A stretch of DNA of 64,000 nt, taken from assembly GCF_000423125.1 (NCBI RefSeq), contig NZ_AUHJ01000011.1, positions 1 to 64,000 on the forward strand, given 5' to 3'. Both the position numbers and the translations under genes were made by a program. Shown piece after piece: positions 1,401 to 19,180 of this stretch. A model generated the notes under the pieces. The model had not been told where the DNA came from. It saw only the letters and a list, made by a program, of their open reading frames with translations, and made no database searches. This DNA comes from Haliea salexigens DSM 19537 (GTDB lineage Bacteria; Pseudomonadota; Gammaproteobacteria; Pseudomonadales; Halieaceae). The stretch's first letter is position 1, and each line of letters opens with the position of its first letter.

Positions 1401-4400
1401 TTATCCGTCTGATTTGAAAAAGCGCCGTTCAAAGTCAGCGATCGACTCCGGCCGGTGAAGGTGAAAGCCTTGCAGTCGGTCACAGCCGAGCGACACCAGC
1501 AAATCCTGCTGCGTCTGACTCTCGACGCCCTCGGCGATAGTTTGCAAGTTCAGGCTTTGTGCCAAAGCGATAATCGCACTACACAGGGCCTGTTGATCAC
1601 GCTTTGTCTCGATATCCCGTATGAATGCCTGGTCGATTTTAAGTTTGTCGATGGGAAAGCGCTGCAAATACGTCAATGACGAGTAACCGGTGCCGAAGTC
1701 ATCGAGGGATAGCATGTGGCCCAAATCCTTGATGCGCCGCAGTGCCAGGGTCACTTTCTCCAGATCGCTGGCTAGAACCGATTCGGTGATTTCAATTTCC
1801 AGCAGCGAAGGTTCGAGGGGATAGCGGTCCCTGAGTCTTTCCAGAACGGCGAAAATGCGGCCCGTTACGAAGGTATCCGCCGACACGTTGACGGCGATGC
1901 TGAACACATTTGTGTACTTCGCCTGCCAGTGATGCAAGCGACGCCAGACCTGCTCAATCACCCATTCATCCAGCTCCAGGATGAGGTCGGACTCTTCCGC
2001 AAGGGGCACAAAAATGCCGGGTGAAATGGCGCCACGCTCAGGGTGCATCCATCGACAGAGTGCCTCCGTGCCAACGAGCACCCCGCCGCAATCAAATTTG
2101 CCCTGCAAATACACTTCCAGCGAGTTCTCGCGAATGGCCTGGCGCAGGTCGCTCTCCAAACTGAGTAGATCGATAGCACGCCTGGTCATGCTGCGATCGT
2201 AAAATGCAAAGTTCTCCGCTTGCCCGACATCGTTATCCTGAGCAGCCGTACTGGCGGACTCTATCAGTTTGATGGCAGTGTTCCCGTCCTGTGGAAAGGT
2301 GGCGATACCTGCAAACACCGAAACGTGCAGTTGGCGACCATCATGATAAACAGGGGTGGAGATCGCTTTGCATAACCTGTTTGCCCAGATCGCGGCTTCG
2401 CTTTTCGGGTCGTCCAACAGAACATAAGCTGCTAGCTCGGTCTCGCTTATACGCGCCAGATCACAGGTTGTGGTCGCTTGCCCGGCGCCAAACATTTGCT
2501 GTGTCAGACGTGGCACTACAGTGCTCAACAGTTCATCCACCGAACCCAGGCCGAGGATATTTCGTAACCTGGCGAAGGTCTTGAGTCGGAGTGTAATGAC
2601 AACCAGTGAACGTTGATCGTCGCTGGCTTCGCTCAAGGCTGCTGCGGTTCGCTGTGTAAACAGGTCCAGATTGGGCAAGCCGGTGCGGCGATCATAAAAT
2701 GCCAGCTGTCGGATGCGGGCCTCGCGTTCGATAACCCGCAAACGCCAGCGGAAAAAGCCGTATAACACCGCACCGATGAGTATGCAGTAGGCGAAATAGG
2801 CCTGCGGCGTTGCCCAGGGTGCTGCGTTAATCGTTACGCCAATCTCAAGTGGACTGTTGCTCCACGCGCCGTAACCGTTGGCGGCACGTATCTGGAATAC
2901 GTAACGGCCTGCGTCAAGATTGGTATAGGTACTGCGCGTGCGCTTGCTGGGCTGTGTCCAATCTTGATCGAATCCCTGGAGCTTTACCGAATATAGATTG
3001 TTTTCCGGCGCCAGAAAGTCGAGCGCCGCATACTCGAACGTGATTGCATTCTCGTTGTAATCAAGCGCGAGTCCCCCGGCGTCCGCCAGCATCGCGACCG
3101 CGTGAAGCGGTTTATTGGCCACCCCAATTTCCGTGAGCGCAATCCTTGGCCCCTGATCGAGATCACCGAACTCCATAGGGTCAAACGCGTTGTAGCCGCC
3201 CGTTCCGCCAAACAGGAACTGCCCGTCACGACTTTCGTGGAAAGCGCCGAAATTGAACTCTTCGTTTTGCAGGCCAAGGGCGCGAGGGAAATAGCGAATG
3301 CTGTCCGATTGCGGGTTGAAGCGCATCAGTCCCCGATTGGAACTCAGCCAGAGTTGTCTCGCCGAGTCCTCCAAAATGCCGTAGATCACATTATTGGTTA
3401 AACCGTCTGCTGTGCCCAGGTGATCAAAGGACGGGTCCTGATTCCATTCTTCTGTATCGCGTAGCCGAGCCAGCCCCGCGCCGGAGGTGCCTATCCACAG
3501 CGACCTGTCCTGCGAAATATGAAGAGAAAAGATCAGGTCAGAACCAAGGCTTCCCGCGGTCTCCAGCGAATGCCGAAAACTGTGCACGGAACCCGATCCG
3601 GGTTCCAGGCGGATCAGGCCTTCACCATCCGTCCCCAACCACAGAGCACCGGCGGTATCTTCACGGATTGCGCTAATCCGCGTGCCCGGAACATAGCGTG
3701 TCGCGGTTAATGTCCCGGGGTCGATCAAAGACAGGCCGCCGCCAAACGTGCCGGCCCAAATGCGATGCTGGCTATCCTCGTACAAACTCATAATGCCGTC
3801 TGCACTCAGGCTCTCGTCATTTGTGGGGTCATGGCGCATTACGTGCAACTGGTTCTGGCCCGGCAGATACATCTGCAGGCCCTCTCCCATTGTGCCAATC
3901 CATAAGCGATTTTCACTGTCCCTCAAAAGTGCCGATACCGGTGCGTCACCCCGGTCGACGTAACCACTTTCGCGATCAAATTCTGCAACGACGTTGCCAC
4001 GGGTATCCAGTTGCAGCAGCGCCGTTGTAAAAGCACCAACCCAGATTCTGCCTTCTCCGGCATCCTCGAATGACAGTACCGCTGTGTTTTCCAGTATGGG
4101 GGGAGTGATAGCGCCCAGGGTCCAGCTATCGGGATTCCACCGATTTACACCGCCCAGACGGGTGCCTACCCACAACACCCCGTCCTCGCTTTGGTGCAAA
4201 GACATGACATGGTCGTCGGACAGGCTGAATCGATCCCGGTCATTGTGGCGATAGATTCGGAAGCCCTGATCCTCTCCCAGGAACAGGTGCAATCCGTCGT
4301 GTGTCGCAACCCAGATTCTGCCCTCGGTATCTTCCAGCACATCGCGGATTTCATTGTTGCCCAGCCCGGCGGGCCCCACTGAGTTCGCGTTGAAAGCGAG

Positions 4401-5201
4401 GGCTTCTCCGGTCTCGAGGTTGTGCCGTACCAGGCCCTGTTCCAGCGTGCCAATCCAGAGAATGCCCGTTCGATCGAGATACAGGGTGGATACGTCGCTG
4501 TAGCTCCACGGGAATCTTTCAAACGTTCCGGTTTCGACCTTAAACGTGTAAAGGCCGCTAGTGGCCCCCACCAGAAGTGTACCCGCCGATACCTCCAGCA
4601 GTGCGTAAATGACGTCGTCTTCTGCGGGTGATTGCTGCTCATTGCCCAAGGGGTAGCGATGTGTGAATTGTCCCTGCTCATCGAACCGAAGCAGCCCGGC
4701 TCCGCGCGTGCCAACCCACAGCGAGCCAATGTGGTCGATCATCACCTGGCGAGCGAATCGTTTCCTCGGGTCCAGATCCTCTCCAGGCACCACAATGTTC
4801 TTGAAGGTTTCCGTAGCGCGTTGCCACTGAACCAACCCGCCTCCTTCTGTTGCCATCCACAGATCGCCGTGACCATCTTCGGCGATTGACCAGACGAAAT
4901 CATGGGCGATTGTGCTTTGATCCGCGGGGTCGGCGTGGAACTGCAGCAGGGTGCGACCGTCATAGCGATTGAGGCCATTTTCGGTGGCAAACCAGACAAA
5001 TCCCCGGGAGTCCTGAAAAATGTCATTTACGGTGACTTGAGACAGCCCCTCGTCGCGACTGAGAACGTTGAAAACCATCTTCTCAGAGGGTGAAGCAGCA
5101 CCTGCTATTGAGCACCATAGAGCGAGAACAACAGCGAGCCTGGGCAACCTGCTTGAGGTAAAGGTGCTCACGTCCAGGAAATCCTCACTTATAAAGGGCA
5201 T
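1401..5201 (-). CDS. Sensor protein: beta-propeller, Y_Y_Y domain, degenerate GGDEF and EAL (c-di-GMP phosphodiesterase)
   Basis: This 1266-residue protein probably senses an extracytoplasmic signal and degrades cyclic di-GMP. An N-terminal signal sequence (about residues 17-36) is followed by many two-component-regulator propeller repeats of the form D..G.LW.GT (about 40-650), then a Y_Y_Y domain (about 690-790) and one membrane helix (about 795-815). The GGDEF domain is degenerate, with SETEL where the signature should be (near 920). The EAL domain looks catalytic: EALCRW (near 1047), NVS, EIEITES, DDFGTGYSS, KLKID and AEGVES are all present. The architecture matches hybrid propeller sensors whose kinase output is replaced by GGDEF-EAL. 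It is transcribed away from the ADH operon. Confidence 0.9.
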   Translation of the reverse strand: MPFISEDFLDVSTFTSSRLPRLAVVLALWCSIAGAASPSEKMVFNVLSRDEGLSQVTVNDIFQDSRGFVWFATENGLNRYDGRTLLQFHADPADQSTIAHDFVWSIAEDGHGDLWMATEGGGLVQWQRATETFKNIVVPGEDLDPRKRFARQVMIDHIGSLWVGTRGAGLLRFDEQGQFTHRYPLGNEQQSPAEDDVIYALLEVSAGTLLVGATSGLYTFKVETGTFERFPWSYSDVSTLYLDRTGILWIGTLEQGLVRHNLETGEALAFNANSVGPAGLGNNEIRDVLEDTEGRIWVATHDGLHLFLGEDQGFRIYRHNDRDRFSLSDDHVMSLHQSEDGVLWVGTRLGGVNRWNPDSWTLGAITPPILENTAVLSFEDAGEGRIWVGAFTTALLQLDTRGNVVAEFDRESGYVDRGDAPVSALLRDSENRLWIGTMGEGLQMYLPGQNQLHVMRHDPTNDESLSADGIMSLYEDSQHRIWAGTFGGGLSLIDPGTLTATRYVPGTRISAIREDTAGALWLGTDGEGLIRLEPGSGSVHSFRHSLETAGSLGSDLIFSLHISQDRSLWIGTSGAGLARLRDTEEWNQDPSFDHLGTADGLTNNVIYGILEDSARQLWLSSNRGLMRFNPQSDSIRYFPRALGLQNEEFNFGAFHESRDGQFLFGGTGGYNAFDPMEFGDLDQGPRIALTEIGVANKPLHAVAMLADAGGLALDYNENAITFEYAALDFLAPENNLYSVKLQGFDQDWTQPSKRTRSTYTNLDAGRYVFQIRAANGYGAWSNSPLEIGVTINAAPWATPQAYFAYCILIGAVLYGFFRWRLRVIEREARIRQLAFYDRRTGLPNLDLFTQRTAAALSEASDDQRSLVVITLRLKTFARLRNILGLGSVDELLSTVVPRLTQQMFGAGQATTTCDLARISETELAAYVLLDDPKSEAAIWANRLCKAISTPVYHDGRQLHVSVFAGIATFPQDGNTAIKLIESASTAAQDNDVGQAENFAFYDRSMTRRAIDLLSLESDLRQAIRENSLEVYLQGKFDCGGVLVGTEALCRWMHPERGAISPGIFVPLAEESDLILELDEWVIEQVWRRLHHWQAKYTNVFSIAVNVSADTFVTGRIFAVLERLRDRYPLEPSLLEIEITESVLASDLEKVTLALRRIKDLGHMLSLDDFGTGYSSLTYLQRFPIDKLKIDQAFIRDIETKRDQQALCSAIIALAQSLNLQTIAEGVESQTQQDLLVSLGCDRLQGFHLHRPESIADFERRFFKSDG

Positions 5202-5375: not shown

Positions 5376-6455
5376 ATGGCAAAGATGAAAGCGGCAGTGT
5401 TCGTGGAGCCGGGCAGGATCGAGATTCAGGACAAGCCCATACCGGATATCGGTGACAACGATGCCCTGATGCGGGTTACGACGACCACCATTTGTGGCAC
5501 TGACGTGCACATCCTCAAAGGGGAGTACCCGGTAGAGAGCGGGCTGACGGTCGGGCACGAACCGGTGGGCGTTATCGAGAAGCTCGGGAAGAATGTGCAG
5601 GGCTACCGCGAAGGCCAGCGGGTCATCGCCGGTGCAATTTGCCCGAGTTACACCTCCTACGCCTGCCAGGATGGTTGCCCATCGCAGGATGGCGGCCACC
5701 ACGCCCACGGTTACAAATCCATGGGTGGTTGGCGCTTCGGCAATACCATCGACGGTGCCCAGGCGGAGTATATTCTGGTGCCCGATGCCCAGGCCAATCT
5801 GGCGCCGGTACCGGACGGACTCAGCGACGAAGAAGTGCTGATGTGCCCGGACATCATGTCCACCGGCTTTGCCGGCGCCGAGTCTGCCGGTATCAACATC
5901 GGCGACATCGTGGTGGTGTTTGCGCAGGGCCCCATCGGCCTGTGTGCGACCGCCGGCGCCCGGCTGAAGGGTGCCGGGCTGATTATCGCGGTTGATGGCA
6001 TTGACGAGCGCCTGGCGATGTCCCGGCAGATGGGCGCTGATATCACGCTGGATTTCCGCAAGGTGGACGTGATTGATGAGATCTTCAAGATTACCGGGGG
6101 GCGCGGTGTCGATGCCGCCATTGAAGCACTGGGCACACAGCAGACTTTCGAGTCAGCGCTTCGGGTGCTGAAACCTGGCGGGACCTTGTCCAGCCTCGGC
6201 GTGTATTCATCCGACCTCAGCATCCCGCTGGGAGCTTTCGCAGCGGGCCTGGGCGATCACCGGATCGTGACCAGCCTGTGCCCTGGCGGCAAGGAGAGAA
6301 TGCGGCGCCTGATGAGTGTCATTCAGTCCAGCAGGCTGGACCTGAAGCCCATGGTGACCCATCGCTACGCGCTTGACGATATCGTGGCGGCTTACGACCT
6401 GTTTTCCCATCAGCGCGATGGTGTGCTGAAGATCGCGCTCAGTACCGGCTCGTAA
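5376..6455 (+). CDS. Zinc-dependent alcohol dehydrogenase (medium-chain, NAD(P)-linked)
   Basis: This 359-residue medium-chain dehydrogenase probably oxidises an alcohol to an aldehyde or ketone. The GroES-like domain has the catalytic zinc ligands in TICGTDVHILKG (Cys) and GHEPVG (His, Glu). The nucleotide fold (about residues 165-300) carries GPIGLCATAGA and ends with the AVDG strand. The usual structural-zinc four-Cys loop is replaced by a loop around CPSYTSYACQDGCPSQDG, as in isopropanol-type secondary alcohol dehydrogenases. It has a GGGAG ribosome site and is the first gene of a run with korA three bases downstream, so its product may feed that enzyme. The substrate is not readable from sequence. 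Confidence 0.88.
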   Translation: MAKMKAAVFVEPGRIEIQDKPIPDIGDNDALMRVTTTTICGTDVHILKGEYPVESGLTVGHEPVGVIEKLGKNVQGYREGQRVIAGAICPSYTSYACQDGCPSQDGGHHAHGYKSMGGWRFGNTIDGAQAEYILVPDAQANLAPVPDGLSDEEVLMCPDIMSTGFAGAESAGINIGDIVVVFAQGPIGLCATAGARLKGAGLIIAVDGIDERLAMSRQMGADITLDFRKVDVIDEIFKITGGRGVDAAIEALGTQQTFESALRVLKPGGTLSSLGVYSSDLSIPLGAFAAGLGDHRIVTSLCPGGKERMRRLMSVIQSSRLDLKPMVTHRYALDDIVAAYDLFSHQRDGVLKIALSTGS

Positions 6456-6458
6456 AAG

Positions 6459-8156
6459 ATGGGTGACACGCAATTGTCGATAGCCATTACCGGCGCGGGC
6501 GGTGCCGGGGTCATTTCCTGTGGCGAGTTGTTGCTCAAGGCCTGGGCGCACTGTGGTGGCCGGGGACTTTTGCGCAAGGCTTTCGGCCCCCAGATTCGCG
6601 GTGGGGAGGCTGCTGCGCTACTCAAGTTTACCCGTCATGAGGTGTACACCGCGGCGGCTCATTACGACATCATCGTGGCCCTGGACTGGGCGAACTTCGA
6701 GCGTTTTCAGGATGAGATCGTTGCGGGTCCGAACACGGTGGTGGTCTGTGAGGACAGTGAACGTATTCCTGCCTCCCTGAGAGGCTTGCCTGTGATTCAG
6801 CTCGCATTCGCGCAGCTCGCCAGCCGCAGTCACCCCGAAGGCCGCGTGAATATGGTGGCTGCTGGCTTGTTGGGACGTGCGTTGCAGCTGCCCCAGAGCG
6901 CTCTGCTGGAGCAGGCGCTCACCAGGCTGGCAAAAAAGCCCGAAGCGTATCGTGAGGGCGCCAGGGCCTGCATTGAGGCGGGTTATGCCGAGCCCGCGAA
7001 CATTGATTTGCCCTTGCCTTCCCGCGACGCCAGTGGCGCCTGGTGCATTACGGGCAACCAGGCGGCGGGTTTCGGCGCGCTGTCAGCCGGGGTCCGTTTT
7101 GCCGCCGCCTACCCGATTACGCCGGCTTCCGACGCTCTGGAGTGGTTGGCCGGTGGCCTGGAGGCTGTGGGCGGTCATTTGGTGCAGGCGGAGGATGAGC
7201 TGGCAGCGATCAATATGACCATTGGAGCGGCGTTTGGCGGTGTGCCGGCGTTTACCGCCACCTCTGGCCCCGGCCTGGCCCTTATGAGTGAAAGCATTGG
7301 CCTGGCAGTCGCCAGTGAAACACCGTTAACGCTTCTCAACGTCATGCGGGGCGGCCCGTCTACGGGTATTCCCACCAAGTCGGAGCAGTCTGATCTCGAT
7401 ATCGCATTGTACGGCCTGCACGGCGATGCCCCCCATCTGGTATTGGCCGCGCTCGACATACCTGACTGTGCATTCGCCACCGGCTGGGCGGTGCAGCTCG
7501 CGCAGGCCCTGCAGGTTCCCGCCATCGTCCTGTCGGACCAGTTTCTCGGCCAGTCCACAGCCGTGGTTGCGCCGCCGAGGCTGCCGTTAGCATTCTCGCC
7601 TGGCGAGACAACAGCACCTCCGAGCAACGAATACCTGAGGTACCGGCTTACAGCAAGCGGTGTTTCCACGCTTGCCCACCCGGGGGATGCTGATGCCCGC
7701 TACACCGCAGATGGCCTGGAGCACAACGAACGTGGCACGCCGTCGGCACGCGCATCGGACCATCACGAGCAGCTCGACAAACGCCGCCGCAAGCTGGAAA
7801 CATTCGATTTCGGCGAGGATTGGGGCCGCTGCGGTGGCACGGGCGATACGGCCCTGGTGAGCTTCGGCTCCGCCAGCGCCGCCGCAGACGAAGCCGCCGC
7901 GCGGCTTGCAGAGCGGGGTACGTCGGTGCGTACTGTCGCTTTGCGACTGCTTGCACCGCTGCCCTTGGCGGGGCTCGAGCGCGCTCTTGCGGGTTGTTCA
8001 CGCGTGGTGGTGGTGGAACAGAATCACGGTGCGCAGCTCTATCATTACCTGAAAGGTCGCCTGAATCTGCCGCTGGAAAGCCTGGCGATTCCAGGCCCTG
8101 TGCCACTCAACCCCGAAACGATCGCCGAAGTGGTCGGTGCAAGGCAGGTCACATGA
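6459..8156 (+). CDS. korA: 2-oxoacid:acceptor oxidoreductase, fused gamma-alpha subunit
   Basis: This 565-residue subunit belongs to the CoA-dependent 2-oxoacid:ferredoxin oxidoreductase family, which converts a 2-oxoacid plus CoA to acyl-CoA and CO2. Residues about 1-180 are the gamma domain (GAGGAGVISCGELLLKA, FGPQIRGGEAAALL). From about 190 comes the alpha pyrimidine-binding domain (GNQAAGFGALSAGVRFAAAYPITPAS, ATSGPGLALM). The C-terminal transketolase-like domain starts near 450. The gamma-alpha fusion is usual for KorA-type enzymes. Its stop overlaps the korB start as ATGA at 8153-8156. No ferredoxin gene is nearby, so the electron acceptor must be encoded elsewhere. Confidence 0.92.
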   Translation: MGDTQLSIAITGAGGAGVISCGELLLKAWAHCGGRGLLRKAFGPQIRGGEAAALLKFTRHEVYTAAAHYDIIVALDWANFERFQDEIVAGPNTVVVCEDSERIPASLRGLPVIQLAFAQLASRSHPEGRVNMVAAGLLGRALQLPQSALLEQALTRLAKKPEAYREGARACIEAGYAEPANIDLPLPSRDASGAWCITGNQAAGFGALSAGVRFAAAYPITPASDALEWLAGGLEAVGGHLVQAEDELAAINMTIGAAFGGVPAFTATSGPGLALMSESIGLAVASETPLTLLNVMRGGPSTGIPTKSEQSDLDIALYGLHGDAPHLVLAALDIPDCAFATGWAVQLAQALQVPAIVLSDQFLGQSTAVVAPPRLPLAFSPGETTAPPSNEYLRYRLTASGVSTLAHPGDADARYTADGLEHNERGTPSARASDHHEQLDKRRRKLETFDFGEDWGRCGGTGDTALVSFGSASAAADEAAARLAERGTSVRTVALRLLAPLPLAGLERALAGCSRVVVVEQNHGAQLYHYLKGRLNLPLESLAIPGPVPLNPETIAEVVGARQVT

Positions 8157-8992
8157 ATGAGCCTATCGCGGTAACCCCGAAGAGTTTCAAATCGGCGGTG
8201 AAGCCGATCTGGTGCCCCGGTTGCGGCCATTTTTCTGTACTTAACGCCATCACCAAGGCCATGGCAGCCCTCGCTATCGACAAGGACAACAGTGTCCTGG
8301 TTTCGGGAATCGGCTGCTCCTCGCGCCTGCCGGCCTATGTGGATACCTATGGCTTCCACGGGGTGCACGGGCGCGGTCTTGCGGTTGCACAGGGCTTGAA
8401 GGTGGCGAGGCCGGAACTCACCGTTATCGCCCTGGGCGGTGATGGGGATGGCTTTTCAATCGGTGGCAATCACTTCCTGCACGCCTGCCGGCGCAACGTC
8501 AACCTGGTGTACATAGCCATGGATAATGAGGTCTATGGCATGACCAAGGGGCAGGCTTCGCCGACCACCCCTTGCGACTGGAGTCACAGCAAGCTCACCC
8601 CCCATGGGCCGGGTGTGCGGCCCTTCAAGCCGGCGGCAATTGCCCTGGCGGCGGGGGCGCCGTGGATCGCCCGCGGCTATTCCGGCAACCCCAACCAGAT
8701 GGCGAAGCTGATCGCAGAGGCGATTGCGTTCGAAGGCTTCAGTTTTATTCATGTGCTTTCGCAGTGCATCACTTTCTGTCCGGAGCAGACCGACTGGAAG
8801 GCCATCGTGCACGAGCGCAGCGAACCTCCGGTGGATAGCGCGGAGCAGGCGGCGCGTTTGTTTCTGGCGGACGATGGGTTTGCGACTGGCGTGCTCTACC
8901 GCGAAGCGCGTGCGACCTGGCCACCCCTGTCGCACCTTTCGAAAGATGAGAGCGAGGCGCTGACGGACCTGGCTGCGGCCTTTGGAGCGTAA
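8153..8992 (+). CDS. korB: 2-oxoacid:acceptor oxidoreductase, beta (TPP-binding) subunit
   Basis: This 279-residue beta subunit binds thiamine diphosphate and one 4Fe-4S cluster. I chose the ATG at 8153 because it overlaps the korA stop; the frame stays open far upstream without homology. WCPGCGH near the N-terminus and the Cys residues in GIGCSSRLP and LSQCITFC are the expected cluster ligands. LGGDGDGFSIGGNH is the TPP/Mg motif, followed by DNEVYGMTKGQASPTT. The length is normal for the family. The next gene starts one base inside its stop codon, so the operon continues into the ferritin-like gene. Confidence 0.93.
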   Translation: MNEPIAVTPKSFKSAVKPIWCPGCGHFSVLNAITKAMAALAIDKDNSVLVSGIGCSSRLPAYVDTYGFHGVHGRGLAVAQGLKVARPELTVIALGGDGDGFSIGGNHFLHACRRNVNLVYIAMDNEVYGMTKGQASPTTPCDWSHSKLTPHGPGVRPFKPAAIALAAGAPWIARGYSGNPNQMAKLIAEAIAFEGFSFIHVLSQCITFCPEQTDWKAIVHERSEPPVDSAEQAARLFLADDGFATGVLYREARATWPPLSHLSKDESEALTDLAAAFGA

Positions 8993-9504
8993 TGATGTTG
9001 CATAACGAGCTGGCATTGTTTCTCGCGCACTCGCTGGCCCTTGAGAGCGAGGCCCGGGAGCGCTACCTGGAATTGTCGGAATCGCTGGCCGCACACCACA
9101 ATGGCGATGCCGCCGCGTTCTTCCAGCGTATGGCGCGCGAAGCCGAGCAACATCTGGAAGAGGTGGCAGAACTCGCTGCCGACCAGGCACTGCCGCAGCT
9201 GCAGCCCTGGGACTACACCTGGCCCGGTCCTGAGGCACCCGAGAGCGCCAGCTATGAAGCGCTGCACTATCGCATGAGCCTCGGCGAGGCCATGCACCTT
9301 GCTCTCGGCAAAGAGCGCGATGCAGCGGCCTATTACCGGGAGGCAGCAAACGCCAGTCTGGACGCGGAAACCCGGCGCGTGGCGGCGGGCTTCGCCGCTG
9401 AGGAAGAGCGGCACGCCGCGGCGCTGGAGGCGATGATCGCCGAGCTGGACGAGCCGGGAGAGTATCACCGGCTGGATGAGGACGACCCACACCTGCCTGC
9501 CTGA
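8992..9504 (+). CDS. Ferritin-like / rubrerythrin-type diiron protein
   Basis: This 170-residue protein is predicted to be a four-helix bundle with a diiron centre. Two pairs of ligand motifs are visible: Glu in ALESEARERY with EAEQH, and Glu in GKERDAAAYY with EEERH. This matches the rubrerythrin-like ferritin superfamily without the C-terminal rubredoxin domain. Proteins of this class reduce peroxide or handle iron in the cytoplasm. Its start overlaps the korB stop by one base. A role protecting the oxygen-sensitive iron-sulfur enzyme encoded upstream is plausible but inferred. It has no signal peptide. Confidence 0.85.
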   Translation: MMLHNELALFLAHSLALESEARERYLELSESLAAHHNGDAAAFFQRMAREAEQHLEEVAELAADQALPQLQPWDYTWPGPEAPESASYEALHYRMSLGEAMHLALGKERDAAAYYREAANASLDAETRRVAAGFAAEEERHAAALEAMIAELDEPGEYHRLDEDDPHLPA

Positions 9505-9549: not shown

Positions 9550-10722
9550 TTACCACCCTACGGGCAAACGAGCCGGCCCACGCAGAATCGCCCCGCGCGG
9601 GCTGGCGGCCTCCCGCTCCCGTAACTGCAAGCCGGGCAAGCGCTCCAGTATCACATCCAGGGCGACGGCGAGCTGGCGTCGCGCCAGGTGCATGCCCGGA
9701 CAAAGTCTCGGCCCGGGGCCAAAGCTGAGCAGCTTCTTGCTGCTGTCGCGGTGCAGGTCGAACACCTCTGGTTGCTCGAATACGCTGGGGTCGCGGTTGG
9801 CTGCGGCAATGGCAAAAAGACAAAAGGTGGCGGGGGGGATTTCTGTCCCGTGGAACTCAATGGCATGCGGCGCTGACAGCCGCGGCAATACGGCTACCGG
9901 TGTCTCCCAGCGCAGCAGTTCCTCAATGGCGCCGGCGCGAAGCGCGGGCTCTGCCAACAATGCCTGCCAGCGTTCGGGTTCTGCCAGCAGCGTGTATATC
10001 AGGTTGCCCAACGCGTCTGTGGTAGTGGAGGCGCCGGCGCTGAACAGCAGGCGGATGTGCGCGAGAACTTCCTCGTCGGTGAGCCTGCGCTCATCCACTT
10101 CAGCCGCCACGAGCCCGGAAAGAATGTCGTCGCGGGGTTCCTGCCGCCGTTCTGCCAGAATGGGCAGCAGGTATTGCGTGATCTCATCTGCGCATTGCCG
10201 CGAGTGCGCGGGGTCGCGCGGAAACTCGAGGAAACCCACGGCCCAGTCGCGAAAAACATCTTCTCGATTGGTGGGAATGCCAAGCATACGGCTGATCACG
10301 GCAAACGCCACGCGGTGTGTGAATTCGTGGGCGAAGTCGGCGCTGCGCCGCGCGCCCAACCGGTCAATCAGCTCGTGGGCTATGCGGGCCAGTCCTTCCT
10401 GTTCCATCGCTTCCACCACGCGCGACTGGAATGCGGGTGTGGCGAGACGCCGGTAGAGTCGGTGCTGGTCGCCTTCCATGGTCTGGAAGGTGACCCCTTG
10501 TACGGGCTCTATCGTGATGCGGTAGGCATCCGCGGGCGGAAAGCGGGCGTTGTCGCGGAAGGCTTCCGCCAGTGACTGGTGGCTGCAGATGAGAAAGGCG
10601 GGCTGCCCGCCGAACAGCGCGGGTTGCACCGGGCCGCGCTCGCGAGCGTCACGCAATGCATTGTGCAGCGCATTGCCGGTCAGGTCTTCATGCGCAAAAT
10701 CGTGCAGTTCTGCGGCGGGCAT
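9550..10722 (-). CDS. Cytochrome P450 (first of two)
   Basis: This 390-residue soluble class I-type bacterial P450 is a haem mono-oxygenase needing electrons from a ferredoxin and reductase that are not in the window. Visible motifs are the I-helix oxygen-activation segment LLFSAGASTTTD (about residue 240), the K-helix ExxR in EELLR, and the haem loop SFGPGPRLCPGMHLARRQ with the Cys ligand near residue 340. The N-terminus has no membrane anchor. It is convergent with the ferritin-like gene and divergent from the first ANL gene. The substrate is unknown; a hydrophobic alkyl, terpenoid or sterol compound is typical for such enzymes. Confidence 0.93.
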   Translation of the reverse strand: MPAAELHDFAHEDLTGNALHNALRDARERGPVQPALFGGQPAFLICSHQSLAEAFRDNARFPPADAYRITIEPVQGVTFQTMEGDQHRLYRRLATPAFQSRVVEAMEQEGLARIAHELIDRLGARRSADFAHEFTHRVAFAVISRMLGIPTNREDVFRDWAVGFLEFPRDPAHSRQCADEITQYLLPILAERRQEPRDDILSGLVAAEVDERRLTDEEVLAHIRLLFSAGASTTTDALGNLIYTLLAEPERWQALLAEPALRAGAIEELLRWETPVAVLPRLSAPHAIEFHGTEIPPATFCLFAIAAANRDPSVFEQPEVFDLHRDSSKKLLSFGPGPRLCPGMHLARRQLAVALDVILERLPGLQLREREAASPRGAILRGPARLPVGW

Positions 10723-10843
10723 CTTTAGGGGTCTCCAGCGTGGGTTTTTATCTCACTTCAAACTAGCAGCGTTTTCGGCTGCTGGCCACGCGGCGGTGTA
10801 GTATGTCTCACCAGCTACTCACACGGCGTTGCAGGCGCACCGC

Positions 10844-12292
10844 ATGTTCATCGCAGAGTACATTGCCGATTTTGCCTCGCGGGCCCCCGGGTCTCTGGCC
10901 GTCATTCACAACGGGCGCGCGATCTCCTACCGTGCGTTTGCTGGCGCTATCGCCCATGCATCGCGGGAGCTTGTACCGCATCTTCCCCCTCGACCCGCCA
11001 CGGTGGGAATCACAATAGATGATCTTGCGGACTGTTGGGTGGCAACCCTTGCCTTGCAGGCGCTTGGTTACACGACGATCTGCGCTGCATCACGTGAGGG
11101 GCTCGCCTCACTCGAGGTTGAAAACCTCTGTGCCATCGTGGTCAGTGCGGTAGAGGGACGTGTGCCGGAAGTGCAGGATGCAGCCCGGGTTTATGCCATG
11201 GACAAGCCCGTATACGAGGAAGTGCAACGGCTCGACGTGCCTGCGCTCGCAGAAACGACGGATGACTGCGGGCATATCCTCTATACATCGGGCACAACGG
11301 GTAAGTATAAAAAAGTATTCAAACCCGCCGCCACGCAGTGTGAGTCTGACCGGGAGCGTAGTCACCATCAGGCATTCGACAGCTCGACGAAATACCATAT
11401 GCTCGGCTTCGGCTTGTGGACCGCCATTGGTTTCAAGATGCCGCCTGCTGTGTGGTCTGTCGGCGGCACGGTGATTTTTGAACAGCGCACTGGCTGGCCG
11501 GAAAAATTTATCGCCAGCCGCTTCACTCATGCGACCCTGCTCCCGGATCAGGCCACGATCCTCAGCCAGAGTGAAGCCTTGCAAGACGCGGTTGGGCAGT
11601 GCGCCCCCCGGCCCACGGTCTCAGTGGGCGGGGGGTTCACGTCGGCCAGGGTGACGGCAAAGCTCGCCCGGGTTTTTCGTCTGCGGAGTATTTATGGCTG
11701 CACCGAGGTGAATGTGGGAGTTCTGTTTGAAGAGCTGGACGCGCCCCCTCCTGGAGGCTGGTTCACATTGCAGGGAGCGCGAGAGGTGGAAGTGGTGAAT
11801 GAGTTACATGAGCCCTGTGCGGCCAATGAGGTGGGCAGCTTGCGTATCAAGTTGACGGAGCTGGATGCCGCAGGGTATCTGGGCGATTCAGACACCACCC
11901 ATGCCGTGTTTCGCGCTGGCTATTTTTACCCCGGTGACACGGCGATACAGCGTGATGATGGCAGGATTCGAATCCTTGGCCGCGTTGCTGATGTCCTCAA
12001 CCTCGGCGGACAAAAAATCGCTGTTGCGCCAATCGAGGCAAACCTGCAAAACCTGCTTCAGGTCGATTATGTTTGCTTGTTTGCGGGCGTCAATGCGGCC
12101 GGTGAGCCCGAGGCGGTGATAGCGATGGAGACCGCTGAGCAGCCCGACCAGGAGCGGCTCGACCATGTGGGACGGGAATTCTCGCAGTGGGGTGAGGTGC
12201 GCTTTGCCCTGGTCGACAGATTTCCACGCACGCAATCCGGTACCAGCAAGATTGACCGCAAACGGCTGAGAGGTTTGCTTTTCCCCGATTGA
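10844..12292 (+). CDS. ANL superfamily AMP-forming acyl-CoA synthetase/ligase, copy 1
   Basis: This 482-residue enzyme is expected to activate a carboxylic acid as an acyl-adenylate. I chose the ATG at 10844 (MFIAEYIADFA) because it aligns with the start of copy 2 and gives exactly the same length; a TTG at 10829 is possible. The P-loop is HILYTSGTTGKYKKV, with Lys where most relatives have Pro. YGCTE, YPGD, RILGR and the C-terminal lysine in SGTSKIDRK are present, so it looks catalytically complete. At 482 residues it is shorter than most acyl-CoA synthetases (about 520-560). It is the first of a tandem pair between two P450 genes. The substrate cannot be predicted. Confidence 0.87.
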   Translation: MFIAEYIADFASRAPGSLAVIHNGRAISYRAFAGAIAHASRELVPHLPPRPATVGITIDDLADCWVATLALQALGYTTICAASREGLASLEVENLCAIVVSAVEGRVPEVQDAARVYAMDKPVYEEVQRLDVPALAETTDDCGHILYTSGTTGKYKKVFKPAATQCESDRERSHHQAFDSSTKYHMLGFGLWTAIGFKMPPAVWSVGGTVIFEQRTGWPEKFIASRFTHATLLPDQATILSQSEALQDAVGQCAPRPTVSVGGGFTSARVTAKLARVFRLRSIYGCTEVNVGVLFEELDAPPPGGWFTLQGAREVEVVNELHEPCAANEVGSLRIKLTELDAAGYLGDSDTTHAVFRAGYFYPGDTAIQRDDGRIRILGRVADVLNLGGQKIAVAPIEANLQNLLQVDYVCLFAGVNAAGEPEAVIAMETAEQPDQERLDHVGREFSQWGEVRFALVDRFPRTQSGTSKIDRKRLRGLLFPD

Positions 12293-12440
12293 TGTCAGTT
12301 GCCGGTGCGGTTTGCGTTCATCGGTACGTGCCTGACAGAGATCAATGACACGTTGGTCAGGCTTCAAACCCTGCGCGTTCGCGCCTGCAGGGTGTGGTAA
12401 CGTCATGATTATGCACGTTTGTTGTTGCCAGAGAACACGC

Positions 12441-13889
12441 ATGATTATCGCCCAATACATCTTCAGCTTCGCCGCACGGACACCGGCGGCACCTGCCATG
12501 GTGCACAACGACCGCACGATATCCTATCGTGCGTTTGCCGGTGCGATTGCCCGGGCCTCCGCGGAGCTGCCACTACACCTATCACCGCCCTCGGGCACCG
12601 TGGCAATCAAGATACACAACCTCGCACACTGCTGGGTGGCGACGCTAGCGCTCCAGGCGCGGGGGTATACCACTATCTGCGTTGGATCGCTGGATGTGCT
12701 GGTTGCTCTCGAGGTCAGGAACTTGCGGGCCATTGTTGTCAGTGCCGCGGAGGAAAATCTGCAGGCAGCGGAGGATCTCCCCCCCGTTTACGCCATGGGC
12801 CGGCCTGTGTTCGACGATATACAGGACTTCGAGGTGCCTGCGTTGGCGGAAGATGTGCATGCATGCGGGCATATTCTTTACACCTCGGGGACGACAGGGA
12901 AGTACAAAAAGGTGCTGGTGCCAGCCCGTACGCAACGGGAGGCCGACCGTGAGCGATGTGATTTCCAGGCGTATGACAGCTCAACCCGATATCACGCGCT
13001 GGGCTTTGGCTTGTGGACAGGCAATGGCTACAAGGCACCCTCTTCCGTGTGGTCAGTCGGAGGTACCGCAATTCTTGATCAGCGCAGCGACTGGGCAGAG
13101 TCCTTTGTCTCCAGTGGCGTGACACGGGCAACGCTACTACCGGACCTGGCCCTGAAGCTGAGTGAATGCGCGAGCTTGCGCAGCCTGCCGCCCCGCAGGG
13201 GTGCTCGCCCCGTTTTCTCGATGAGTGGCGGCTTTGTCTCAGCGAAGGCCACCGCCGTGCTGAGCCAGTATTTCGATCTGGTCAATTCTTATGGATGCAC
13301 CGAGGTCGGTCTGGGCGTGTTGTTCCATGATTACTCGCTGCCGGCGCACCTCAGCTGGATGAAGTCCACGGGTGCTCGCGTGGTTGAGGTGGAGAACGAG
13401 CAGGGTCAGGTGAGCGCGCTCAACGAGGAGGGGCGATTGCGTATCAAGCTTACCGAGCTGGATGCCGATGGCTACCTGGACGACGCAGACGCGAGCAGAT
13501 TGGCATTCAGCAAGGGTTACTTTTATCCCGGTGACCTCGCCCTGCAACGCGAGGACGGCGCTTTTCGTATCCTGGGCCGCGCGGCGGACGTGGTGAATCT
13601 CGGCGGACAAAAATTGGCTGTCGCACCCATTGAGGCCAACCTTCAGGACGTCCTGCAGGTTGACTACGTGTGCCTGTTCGCCGGGATGACGGCCACCGGC
13701 GAGCCCGAGGCGGTGATTGCGATGGAGGCTCCCGAACTGCCCGGCGAGGATCGTCTCGAACACGTAGGGCAGGAATTCTCGCAATGGGGTGAGGTGCGCT
13801 TTGCCCTGGTCGACAGGTTTCCACGCACACAATCCGGAACCAGCAAGATTGACCGCAAGCGCTTGCGGAGTCTCGTTTTTCCCGATTAG
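12441..13889 (+). CDS. ANL superfamily AMP-forming acyl-CoA synthetase/ligase, copy 2
   Basis: This is the tandem paralogue of the preceding gene, also 482 residues from the ATG at 12441. An upstream in-frame start at 12345 would add 32 residues with no match to copy 1. The motifs mirror copy 1: HILYTSGTTGKYKKV, SYGCTEVGLGVLF, YPGDLALQ, RILGR and SGTSKIDRK. The N-terminal and middle parts have diverged clearly, while the last 40 or so residues and their DNA are nearly identical. This suggests duplication followed by divergence of the acid-binding part, or gene conversion at the 3' end. The two may have different substrates or form a heteromer. Confidence 0.87.
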   Translation: MIIAQYIFSFAARTPAAPAMVHNDRTISYRAFAGAIARASAELPLHLSPPSGTVAIKIHNLAHCWVATLALQARGYTTICVGSLDVLVALEVRNLRAIVVSAAEENLQAAEDLPPVYAMGRPVFDDIQDFEVPALAEDVHACGHILYTSGTTGKYKKVLVPARTQREADRERCDFQAYDSSTRYHALGFGLWTGNGYKAPSSVWSVGGTAILDQRSDWAESFVSSGVTRATLLPDLALKLSECASLRSLPPRRGARPVFSMSGGFVSAKATAVLSQYFDLVNSYGCTEVGLGVLFHDYSLPAHLSWMKSTGARVVEVENEQGQVSALNEEGRLRIKLTELDADGYLDDADASRLAFSKGYFYPGDLALQREDGAFRILGRAADVVNLGGQKLAVAPIEANLQDVLQVDYVCLFAGMTATGEPEAVIAMEAPELPGEDRLEHVGQEFSQWGEVRFALVDRFPRTQSGTSKIDRKRLRSLVFPD

Positions 13890-14010
13890 CCGCCGGGCCC
13901 CGTCAGCGCTCGTCGCGAGCCTCTCGCCATCAATTCGGCTCGCACCCTACACTTCCGGCGCGTGCCGCACTAGACTGGTCGCATAACCCGACTCAAGGAG
14001 AAGCACTCGC

Positions 14011-14364
14011 GTGGCCTATGACCTCACCGGCAAGATCAAACTCATCCAGGAACCCCAAACCTTCAACAGCGGCTTTACCAAGCGTGAAATGGTGGTGACG
14101 GTTGAGGACGGGAAATATCCCCAGGACATCAGCCTGGAATTCGTGCAGGACAAGATCGGCCTGCTTGAGGGGTTGCAGCCCGGCCAGGAAGTGACGGTCA
14201 CCTTTGATATCCGCGGGCGTGAGTACAACGGCCGCTACTTCAATAACCTGCAGGGCTGGAAGATCAGCGCCGCCGGCGCGCCCGCACAGGCTCAGGACGA
14301 CTATGCGGGCATGCCCTATCAGGCCGGTGACCCTGGCCCGACGGATGACGACATTCCGTTCTAG
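14011..14364 (+). CDS. DUF3127 family protein with SSB-like acidic C-terminal tip
   Basis: This 117-residue protein starts at GTG, supported by an AAGGAG site ending 10 bases upstream. The body (MAYDLTGKIKLIQEPQTF, FTKREMVVTVEDG, GLQPGQEVTVTFDIRGREYNGRYFNNLQGWKI) matches DUF3127, which is predicted to adopt an OB-like fold. The C-terminal 30 residues form a Gly/Pro/Gln-rich linker ending in DDDIPF, the same tip that E. coli SSB uses to recruit repair and replication proteins. A single-stranded nucleic acid-binding role is therefore plausible but inferred. Its position among P450 and ANL genes gives no metabolic clue. Confidence 0.8.
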   Translation: MAYDLTGKIKLIQEPQTFNSGFTKREMVVTVEDGKYPQDISLEFVQDKIGLLEGLQPGQEVTVTFDIRGREYNGRYFNNLQGWKISAAGAPAQAQDDYAGMPYQAGDPGPTDDDIPF

Positions 14365-14408
14365 GCGGTGCATGATAGGCCCTGATGAGGCCAGAAGAGC
14401 ATAAGAAC

Positions 14409-15626
14409 ATGAGCACCGCCACCCGCACATCCGCCAGTGATTGGTTCTTCCCGGAAATCGACTTTGCGATTGATCCGCTGCCCGATTTTCACTCGCGCAT
14501 GGCCGAGCTGCGCGATTCCGGCCAGCGCGTGGTGCCGGTCAAATACCTGGGTGAAACCGCCTGGATTATTCTGCGTCACGATGACGTGTCCGCGCTTTAT
14601 CGCAACGAGGCGGGCGTGCCCGCCGGCCCAGCTTACCGCAGGCATTCCGAACCCGCCCAGGGCAAGACGCTGCTCTGTATGGAGGGTGACGAACACCGCG
14701 TTAACCGCCTGCTGGTATCCGGCGCGTTTCACCCGGGCGCCATACGGCGCAGCATCAGTACGCTGCTGCGGCCACTGGCGGATGAGCTGATCGATGGTCT
14801 GACAGGCCAGACCGGTGTGGACCTGGTGGCGGCCTATACCCACCGCTACCCCTTCAAGGTAATTACCGGCCTGCTGGGCATTCCGGTGGCAGATGAGCCC
14901 GAGCTTCACCAGTGGTTGCAGGGTCTGTTCCAGTTCCCCTGGAACCCCGAGCTGGCGCTGGAGGCACGCGCTGCTATCACCGCGTACCTCGCTCCCATCG
15001 TACGGCAACGTCGTGCCGATCCCCGCGAGGATCTTCTGTCGCTGTTGGCGACAGCCGTGGTGGAGGGCAAACAGCTCTCGGACGAAGAGATTTTTTCTTT
15101 CGTGCGGCTCATTTTCCCGGCCGGCGCAGACACCACGTACTTGTCGCTGGGCAGCCTGCTGTGGGCGGTTTTGCGGGACGACACCCTGCGTCAGCAGTTG
15201 CGGGCCGAGCCGGCGCTGCACGCGGCGGCGGTGGACGAGGGTTTGCGGCTGTATGGGGCGGTCTGCCTGCAGCCGCGCTACACCGAGCGGGAGGTTGTAG
15301 TGGCGGGTGTCACCATCCCCGCCAACTCACCCCTGTTGTACGGCAATGCCACGGCCAATCGCGACCCGGCGGTGTTTGCAGATGCCGACACGTTCCAGCT
15401 CGACCGAGGTGCGCACCACAAATCGGTCACCTTTGGTGGCGGGCCCCATTTCTGCCTCGGCTCGCACCTGGCGCGCGCGGAAATCGAGGTGTCGTTGGGA
15501 GCCCTGTTGGCCCGTTTGCCGGGGCTGAGGCTGGCGGATCCTGCGCAGCCTGGGCCGCAGGGGGCGGTACTGCGTGGGGTGCGGGAGCTGCCTGTGCTGT
15601 TCGACACCGTGTTGCCAGCGGAGTAG
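14409..15626 (+). CDS. Cytochrome P450 (second of two)
   Basis: This 405-residue soluble P450 starts at the ATG at 14409; an in-frame ATG at 14385 would add eight residues. Motifs are FPAGADTTYLS in the I-helix, EGLR as the ExxR motif, and TFGGGPHFCLGSHLARAE with the haem Cys near residue 349. It shares the general plan of the first P450 but is clearly different in sequence, so the pair is not a recent duplication. No ferredoxin or ferredoxin reductase gene is nearby. It is convergent with the SnoaL-like gene, with a six-base gap. Confidence 0.93.
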   Translation: MSTATRTSASDWFFPEIDFAIDPLPDFHSRMAELRDSGQRVVPVKYLGETAWIILRHDDVSALYRNEAGVPAGPAYRRHSEPAQGKTLLCMEGDEHRVNRLLVSGAFHPGAIRRSISTLLRPLADELIDGLTGQTGVDLVAAYTHRYPFKVITGLLGIPVADEPELHQWLQGLFQFPWNPELALEARAAITAYLAPIVRQRRADPREDLLSLLATAVVEGKQLSDEEIFSFVRLIFPAGADTTYLSLGSLLWAVLRDDTLRQQLRAEPALHAAAVDEGLRLYGAVCLQPRYTEREVVVAGVTIPANSPLLYGNATANRDPAVFADADTFQLDRGAHHKSVTFGGGPHFCLGSHLARAEIEVSLGALLARLPGLRLADPAQPGPQGAVLRGVRELPVLFDTVLPAE

Positions 15627-15631
15627 CTCGC

Positions 15632-16141
15632 TCAGGATGGCTGCGGCGGCATATGGTTGCCTGCCCAGACAACCGTGTCATTTCCGCTGGAGTAGTCAGT
15701 GATGAAGGCCGAGCACACGTTGAAGGTACTGGCGCTGATCAGCCAATCGCCATCAATGCGACGGTACTCGTCTTCGTAAAAGCCGCTGAGTTGCACGGTG
15801 GTCTTGTCCTGTGTGTTGATGCTGTGGAAGCGCAGCCCCACGCGGCCTCGTGCGCTGTCAGGCCCTGTTATCTCCACCAGCGGGTTCTGTGCGTGGTGCA
15901 TGTCGACAATGTGTTCATGGCAGCCGAGTTCAACAAAGACGGCGACAAAATCCTCGCGGTTGGCAAATTGGCCTATGTGCCCGAAGTTGATCTCCACCGG
16001 TCCTGGGGCAAAACAGGCGGTTACGCGCTCCGGGGCCTTGTCGTCACAGGCATTCAGATAGCGGTATTTGAGTTCGCAAATGGCCTGCTTGTCGAGCAGA
16101 GCCTGCAAAGAGTCCTGCTGGTCGGTGCTGTGGTTGGACAT
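15632..16141 (-). CDS. SnoaL-like / nuclear transport factor 2 family protein
   Basis: This 169-residue protein has the cone-shaped alpha+beta barrel signature of SnoaL-like domains. The N-terminal helix with KQAICELKYRYLNACDDK, the FGHIGQFANRE segment, and the final strands (GFYEDEYRRIDGDWLISAS) fit the SnoaL_4 group. Family members include isomerases, dehydratases and ring-hydroxylating accessory proteins acting on small hydrophobic molecules. It has no signal peptide. Placement next to a P450 and near two ANL enzymes suggests a shared metabolic route, but the reaction is not predictable. Confidence 0.8.
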   Translation of the reverse strand: MSNHSTDQQDSLQALLDKQAICELKYRYLNACDDKAPERVTACFAPGPVEINFGHIGQFANREDFVAVFVELGCHEHIVDMHHAQNPLVEITGPDSARGRVGLRFHSINTQDKTTVQLSGFYEDEYRRIDGDWLISASTFNVCSAFITDYSSGNDTVVWAGNHMPPQPS

Positions 16142-16325: not shown

Positions 16326-16802
16326 TCAGCGCATTGCGCGCAGCATCCAGGCGGTTTTCTCGTGGATGCGCATGCGGTCGGAGATCAGCGCCGCGGACGA
16401 TTCATCATCCGCCTCCTGTGCCGGTCCCAGCGCGTCGCGGCAGGTTTTAACCACCTGCTCGTGTCCACGATTGAGGATCTCGACCATATCAGTGGCTGCA
16501 GGCACACCGTCCACTTCCTGGATGGAGCTGAGCGCCGCGAAGGCCTTGTAGGTGCCGGGGGCGACCTCCCCGAGCGTGCGAATACGCTCGGCGATGTCAT
16601 CGACCGCGGTAGCCAGTTCGGTGTAGTGCTCCTCGAACATCAGGTGCAACTGGCGGAACTGCGGTCCGGTCACGTTCCAGTGGAAGTTATGGGTTTGCAG
16701 GTAGAGCGTGTAGGAATCCGCCAGCAAGCGCTTAAGACCTTCTGCCACACGGGCGCGGTCGGAACTGGAGATGCCGATATCAATGTCTGTCATGTGTGTC
16801 AC
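16326..16802 (-). CDS. dps: Dps / ferritin-like DNA-protection protein
   Basis: This 158-residue Dps-family protein forms dodecamers that oxidise ferrous iron with hydrogen peroxide and store it, protecting DNA. The ferroxidase ligands are in [29 protein letters not shown] (His, His, Asp/Glu region, about residues 35-65). The length is typical. Translation could start at M1 or M4. It follows katG on the same strand with an eight-base gap, so the two are probably one oxidative-stress operon. A basic N-terminal tail of the DNA-binding type is not evident. Confidence 0.93.
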
Positions 16803-16810
16803 TCCTCTAA

Positions 16811-19180
<2,370 letters not shown>

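Follow-up and report, generated by a model that had tools for sequence, protein, structure and literature searches.

A conserved Haliea gene block joining two cytochromes P450 with a divergent subfamily of adenylate-forming enzymes

The described systems closest to the locus treated here are the acyl- and aryl-CoA ligases, the steroid side-chain degradation sets (ChsE, ChsH1-ChsH2 and Ltp2), the bile-acid 7alpha-dehydratase BaiE and a range of bacterial cytochromes P450 (P450s). PMC13101464 describes SteC, a SnoaL/NTF2 dehydratase that takes part in the breakdown of steroid rings in Comamonas and is said to resemble BaiE. The locus itself lies at positions 9550-16141 of a 64,000-nucleotide stretch (the window) from Haliea salexigens DSM 19537, contig NZ_AUHJ01000011.1, and combines two P450s (P450a and P450b), two tandem adenylate-forming ANL enzymes (ANL1 and ANL2), a DUF3127 protein and a SnoaL_4/NTF2-fold protein (SnoaL). 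Its gene order is conserved in five Haliea genomes. The block may serve to oxidise and CoA-activate a steroid- or isoprenoid-like acid; its redox partners would be supplied in trans. This is a tentative reading, favoured over its rivals, in which both the substrate and the order of reactions are deduced from sequence. Judged by title and abstract opening, none of the papers found on Haliea P450s, DUF3127, steroid degradation in Halieaceae, Ltp2-type steroid genes, H. alexandrii and BaiE appears to treat the block, and a literature search combining SnoaL, P450, acyl-CoA synthetase, gene cluster and Gammaproteobacteria found nothing.

Conservation and composition of the block

The order P450a(-)/ANL(+)/DUF3127(+)/P450b(+)/SnoaL(-) is identical in the window and at the loci of UBA5085 (L013, genome G001), an uncultured Haliea (L014, G005), UBA5044 (L015, G003) and Haliea alexandrii LZ-16-2 (L016, G007), that is, in all four other genomes with a close ANL orthologue. 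The source genome is G000, the four loci were assigned to their genomes by coordinates, and the identification of genus g1 as Haliea and of family f1 as Halieaceae is itself deduced; the named matches to ANL2, at these four loci, all belong to Haliea or Halieaceae. The left-hand neighbourhoods are of three kinds (window and L016; L013; L014 and L015), and persistence of the same order in spite of this argues for a functional connection. Two ANL copies are present in the window and L016, one in each of the remaining loci. To the right, KamA-like, PuuB-like and glutamine synthetase genes follow in the five genomes (L013 ends inside KatG). In the window, L016 and L013 a Dps-KatG pair (window 16326-19120) separates SnoaL from the KamA-like gene; L014 and L015 lack this pair. 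The P450, ANL and SnoaL genes of the window show dN/dS (non-synonymous to synonymous substitution) ratios of 0.06-0.17 against their Haliea orthologues, many dS values being near saturation, which indicates purifying selection on these genes. As 11 P450 loci over the cut-off occur in the 4.26 Mb genome, chance alone would give about 0.16 P450 pairs no more than 6 kb apart. The P450 pair alone is thus unremarkable, and the weight of the observation rests on the conservation of gene order and sequence and not on P450 proximity.

In a further genome, G002, contig C4 ends with P450a and contig C30 begins with DUF3127-P450b-SnoaL. These two ends probably adjoin, which would place the ANL position at the contig ends, and the ANL profile search of family genomes found no ANL in G002. 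A supposed natural deletion in P450b/SnoaL of this genome was dropped, the stretch being a run of N across the junction.

Pfam and NCBIfam scans were run on ten window proteins, the flanking genes being named in a later scan. P450a (390 aa; 9550..10722, minus strand; PF00067, 112.6 bits) is divergent from ANL1 (10844..12292, plus strand; PF00501, 53.1 bits; paralogue type B) and ANL2 (12441..13889, plus strand; PF00501, 49.4 bits; type A), whose starts were placed by conservation. These are followed by the DUF3127 gene (117 aa; 14011..14364, plus strand; PF11325, 95.7 bits) and, on the same strand and with 20 bp between the annotated stop and its first ATG, by P450b (413 aa; 14385..15626, plus strand; PF00067, 100.3 bits; the conserved start may be 14409). 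SnoaL (169 aa; 15632..16141, minus strand; PF13577, 81.5 bits) is convergent with P450b. The first-pass annotation had recognised two P450s flanking tandem AMP-binding enzymes, with a SnoaL-type protein after P450b, and the profile matches uphold this; its coordinates were essentially correct, only the ANL starts being adjusted, and its gene list overlooked the DUF3127 gene between ANL2 and P450b. A one-operon organisation is ruled out by the gene directions and by the separate histories of DUF3127 and SnoaL. A shared operator or promoter was sought in the divergent P450a-ANL stretch, where no obvious conserved palindrome could be seen by eye, and a pattern scan returned near-shuffle counts of promoters (3 versus 1.3 in shuffled sequence) and terminators (5 versus 5.2).

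DUF3127 and SnoaL appear to be older residents. DUF3127 is a core gene of the family: of 37 family genomes searched, 28 have a match (30 of 58 counting all genomes), nearly always in single copy, and the gene stands between ANL and P450b in all five genomes with the module. Among 25 other DUF3127 loci fetched, P450b and SnoaL adjoin it in G002 only, and six of the 25 have more distant P450s (26-30% identity) within 8 kb. The protein ends in DDDIPF, which we take to resemble the interaction tip of the single-stranded DNA-binding protein SSB. The single paper found to name DUF3127 describes a phage genome. SnoaL orthologues (E 1e-15 or better) were detected in 22 of 33 genomes. Seven SnoaL loci without the block were fetched: four (G004, G006, G017 and G024) lie near KamA-like, PuuB-like and glutamine synthetase genes, with none of the block's P450s or ANL there, while those of G009, G022 and G033 are not near such genes. 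The association of SnoaL with glutamine synthetase is therefore older than that with P450b. The earlier view of five genes as one unit thus did not hold, as unrelated conserved neighbourhoods in relatives were found for SnoaL and DUF3127, and not for ANL and P450b. The true unit would be P450a-ANL-P450b around DUF3127, the membership of SnoaL being doubtful.

The only solved structure matching SnoaL at E < 1e-4 is BaiE (E 5.6e-8; profile E 2.7e-7), with SnoaL Y28, D33 and H82 aligning to BaiE Tyr30, Asp35 and His83, a numbering and catalytic role that we assume for BaiE. The Tyr/Asp/His triad is kept in all 12 Halieaceae SnoaL orthologues examined and in the SnoaL_4 protein of G822. The BaiE residues were looked for in PMC9426597 and not found there.

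Around the block, the left edge of the window carries an IS66-family transposase (39-917), followed by a 1266-aa regulator-propeller/Y_Y_Y/GGDEF/EAL protein (1401-5201) and a set, common to the window and L016 only, encoding a zinc alcohol dehydrogenase, a fused 2-oxoacid:acceptor oxidoreductase alpha/gamma, its beta subunit and a rubrerythrin/ferritin-like protein (5376-9504). The right flank holds a Dps-like ferritin, a peroxidase (KatG by eye), a radical SAM protein (KamA-like by eye), a DAO protein (PuuB-like by eye) and glutamine synthetase. Some 5 kb past the right end of the window there is a third P450 (G000 C11:68950).

The ANL subfamily and the two P450s

A profile built from seven Haliea ANL sequences was searched against 140 family genomes at E 1e-25 or better and identified the subfamily in eight of them: five Haliea genomes, G822 and G823 (genus g2), and G884 (genus g6, three copies). 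The three genomes outside Haliea led to the abandonment of the idea that ANL is confined to that genus. Across the phylum (398 genomes at 1e-18) nothing appeared beyond G000 and, in G455, a partial match of 82 bits; this match and a Shinella plasmid ANL (26%) were judged to be different genes. ANL2 orthologues in the four other Haliea genomes are 74-86% identical, the non-Haliea members 35-43%. All 12 members share invariant P-loop TSGT, YGxTE, PGD and GR motifs and an invariant C-terminal lysine that aligns to its counterpart in LgrA, with two residues inserted before this catalytic lysine relative to LgrA. ANL1 and ANL2 exceed the Pfam AMP-binding cut-off of 29.9 bits, and fall below every NCBIfam cut-off among the matches listed (the best 25 of 67 and 68; at most 102 bits against 476), so that no named family covers them. 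They form a divergent subfamily with all catalytic motifs in place that the libraries searched do not contain; its predicted chemistry is of a known kind. An invariant Trp (W195) aligns, beside an alignment gap, to the Asp of the adenylation (A) domain of the non-ribosomal peptide synthetase (NRPS) LgrA. As this Asp presumably binds the alpha-amino group, an alpha-amino acid substrate is disfavoured. A carrier protein was sought among open reading frames of at least 30 aa in the ANL2-P450b gap; only DUF3127 was conserved, and the idea of a carrier protein there was given up.

ANL1 and ANL2 are 63% identical. In the tree ANL1 groups with the second L016 copy (100/100) and ANL2 with the first (94/96), which implies that the two species carry the tandem pair in opposite orders (window 10844-13889; L016 9998-13035); type A, to which ANL2 belongs, is the single-copy type of L013, L014 and L015. 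Identity between the window paralogues over five successive segments is 0.60, 0.63, 0.49, 0.71 and 0.84; paralogue identity drops to 0.47-0.49 at residues 230-340, presumably the substrate-binding stretch, and reaches 0.84-0.85 in the last 62. Four-fold sites follow the same course, being identical at 19 of 25 in the last 62 codons compared to 9/33 to 16/41 elsewhere, and the L016 paralogues behave alike (18/28 at the end). The homogenised 3' end would fit C-terminal gene conversion or strong constraint, combined with divergence of the likely substrate-binding part.

The genomic contexts of the distant ANL members are varied. In G822 and G823 a SnoaL_4 gene (93% identical between the two) lies directly upstream of ANL on the same strand (gaps of about 195 and 119 bp). 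For one G884 copy, a P450 of the P450a group (100/99, with a warning for long branches) is found at a distance of 5 kb. These recurrences favour a functional connection between the block's enzymes. Another G884 copy is convergent, at 3 bp, with a carotenoid oxygenase of the RPE65 family (PF03055, 394.9 bits); the best match of that oxygenase in NCBIfam is the 8'-apo-carotenoid 13,14-cleaving dioxygenase, with 356.5 bits against a cut-off of 675. This ANL is 37-39% identical to those of Haliea. The third copy follows a class-I glutamine amidotransferase gene near a FAD_binding_2 protein. As side observations, the ANL-SnoaL_4 pair (L099, L100) lies near glutamine-synthetase-like and aminotransferase genes, the Haliea block likewise being near a glutamine synthetase gene; L100 has a partial second SnoaL copy after ANL; and at L098 (7244-9430) the amidotransferase gene is 30 bp upstream of the G884 ANL copy.

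At 40% identity to each other, P450a and P450b belong to two distinct clades, each well supported, in trees from which the G024 P450 (L067) is absent, as is L072 from the second, where the long branches, including L097, carry a warning. Both have the heme-cysteine loop and ExxR (ELLR in P450a, where the pattern search stopped at EPER). P450a has the heme loop FGPGPRLCPG. Its I-helix motif lacks the usual acid, reading AGASTT in each of the eight Haliea sequences and AGATTT in the relative from G884, and a member of its clade is found in each of the eight Haliea genomes. P450b has FGGGPHFCLG and AGADTT. Its orthologues at 1e-120 occur in seven of the 140 family genomes, namely six Haliea (G000 included) and G009, and none was found beyond G000 at 1e-60 among 369 class genomes drawn from a larger group. 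P450s of 44-47% identity in G017, G022, G023, G004 and G006 (47% in the latter two) lie among LLM oxidoreductase, sulfotransferase-like, SDR and ligase genes, mostly identified by eye. Redox partners had been noted as missing; none is indeed encoded in the stretch, but six Fer2 matches occur elsewhere in the genome, one of them about 3.4 kb from another P450.

Proposed substrate of the block and alternative explanations

Oxidation and acid activation of a hydrophobic molecule, as first proposed, is still the best reading, though not for five genes acting as one unit. P450b, and possibly P450a at another position, would hydroxylate an unactivated carbon with a ferredoxin and reductase encoded elsewhere, and further oxidation would yield a carboxylate. 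This would be adenylated by ANL and most likely converted to a CoA thioester, to be shortened by acyl-CoA dehydrogenase, ChsH2-type and thiolase enzymes also encoded elsewhere. Where two ANL paralogues occur, in two species, they may act on different acids and deliver them to a common acceptor. SnoaL is an older neighbour that need not belong to the pathway; with its BaiE-like triad it could act as a dehydratase on a hydroxylated intermediate.

The first-pass annotation had seen no match to the full set in the alkane, sterol and camphor pathways; steroid-like catabolism is now the leading context for this chemistry. In G009, which holds the only P450b orthologue found outside Haliea (73.1% identical over 386 aa), a TonB receptor gene (PF00593) precedes that orthologue by 11 bp. 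The same-strand run there also encodes an AMP-binding ligase, a lipid-transfer thiolase (NF005892, 647.6 bits versus a cut-off of 469), a MaoC protein, an acyl-CoA dehydrogenase, a protein with FAS1_DH and ChsH2 domains and a TetR regulator, a second acyl-CoA dehydrogenase being divergent; overlapping reading frames leave the exact gene starts uncertain. The host is also plausibly capable of steroid catabolism, as seven KshA_C and six OB_ChsH2_C matches are present in G000 and growth on cholesterol is described in PMC5790920 for one isolate from a sponge that was placed in Halieaceae.

Several observations weigh against this reading. KshA_C (PF19298), a profile which may also catch other Rieske oxygenases, has 6-9 matches in all 12 relatives tested (seven in G000) and none over the cut-off in 14 control genomes, but is equally frequent in G004 and G006, where neither ANL nor an orthologous P450b was found. 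It thus describes the host and does not tie the block to steroid catabolism. In these two genomes P450a and SnoaL lie at separate places, P450a being without ANL and P450b, and Haliea genomes of this kind argue against a genus-wide function. The Haliea block itself contains no beta-oxidation gene, TonB receptor or regulator, and no NCBIfam steroid P450 model matches P450a or P450b. In whole-length profile comparison with the PDB, the ANL family scores best against an NRPS A domain and next against 4-chlorobenzoate-CoA ligase, and the structure models (mean predicted local distance difference test scores of 42.6 and, for SnoaL, 53.6) are too poor to use. The ANL relative beside a carotenoid oxygenase indicates another substrate class, and the differing neighbours of the G884 copies weaken any single-pathway claim.

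Among the alternatives, the strongest is that the genes are functionally unrelated neighbours kept by vertical descent, ANL and P450b having arrived separately beside the old DUF3127 and SnoaL. The separate, older neighbourhoods of the latter two, the solitary P450a of G004 and G006, four transcription directions that do not form one operon and the chance expectation for P450 pairs all speak for this. It is nevertheless rather unlikely in view of the P450a-ANL adjacency, which persists across three left-hand neighbourhoods, and of the recurrence of ANL by SnoaL_4 (G822, G823) and near a P450a-clade enzyme (G884), each of which alone has a chance of a few per cent (3% for a P450 within 6 kb). 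That the block handles apocarotenoid or other terpenoid acids, in catabolism or tailoring, and not steroids, is quite unlikely: the dinoflagellate phycosphere given as the source of H. alexandrii in PMC7256253 would suit such substrates, as would the carotenoid oxygenase beside ANL in G884, but the latter occurs at one of three loci, beside a distant ANL, and no carotenoid oxygenase gene lies near the Haliea block. Biosynthetic adenylation, with the ANLs activating an aryl or acyl acid that enters a natural product and the P450s tailoring that product, is improbable. In its favour are the resemblance of the ANLs in profile searches to NRPS A domains, dihydroxybenzoyl-AMP ligases and MenE, and their duplication and diversification; against it stand the invariant Trp at the LgrA Asp position and a block devoid of carrier protein, condensing enzyme and transporter, its only extra gene being DUF3127.

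A more specific form of the oxidation and activation reading appears doubtful. Here the Halieaceae-restricted ANL subfamily, with its tandem duplication, order swapping and C-terminal homogenisation, would together with the two lineage P450s constitute a separate route from algal sterols or terpenoids to a CoA ester, SnoaL having been drawn in as dehydratase from its older gene setting. If oxidation and CoA activation are indeed the role of the block, it would provide a defined enzyme set that takes a recalcitrant hydrophobic compound from uptake to CoA ester in bacteria that are abundant in the sea, along with a new ANL subfamily with paralogues suited to side-by-side comparison of substrate and acceptor. 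The locus also illustrates that a pathway-looking block can hold old bystanders, two of the six proteins here having separate histories.

Comparison with known systems

The P450s of the block share about 40% identity over their length with other bacterial P450s, both enzymes that we take as CYP107-like and plasmid-borne ones of Sphingobium, Rhodococcus and Mycobacterium. The plasmid P450s adjoin ferredoxin or limonene-epoxide-hydrolase-like genes, those of Rhodococcus and M. chimaera adjoining an NTF2-fold gene; in contrast to the Haliea block, no ANL of the Haliea subfamily lies beside them, and P450a differs by its I-helix without an acid. With acyl- and aryl-CoA ligases (PRK06187, PRK06164, PRK06155, 4-chlorobenzoate-CoA ligase and MenE) the ANLs share fold family, catalytic motifs and the C-terminal lysine, but they score far below the curated cut-offs among the matches listed and are known in eight of 140 family genomes. 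The steroid side-chain degradation sets share ChsH2-domain, thiolase, acyl-CoA dehydrogenase and ligase genes with the P450b cluster of G009, whereas the Haliea block has none of their genes except a ligase of another subfamily, no ChsE/ChsH/Ltp2-type gene being found there by Pfam scans and locus comparison. ChsE and Ltp2 serve here as names of gene types, and no equivalence to the G009 genes is claimed. SnoaL shares the aligned Tyr/Asp/His with BaiE at low sequence identity, the old neighbours of the Haliea gene being a radical-SAM/DAO/glutamine synthetase block. SteC, as described in PMC13101464, demonstrates that a dehydratase role of the SnoaL/NTF2 fold exists.

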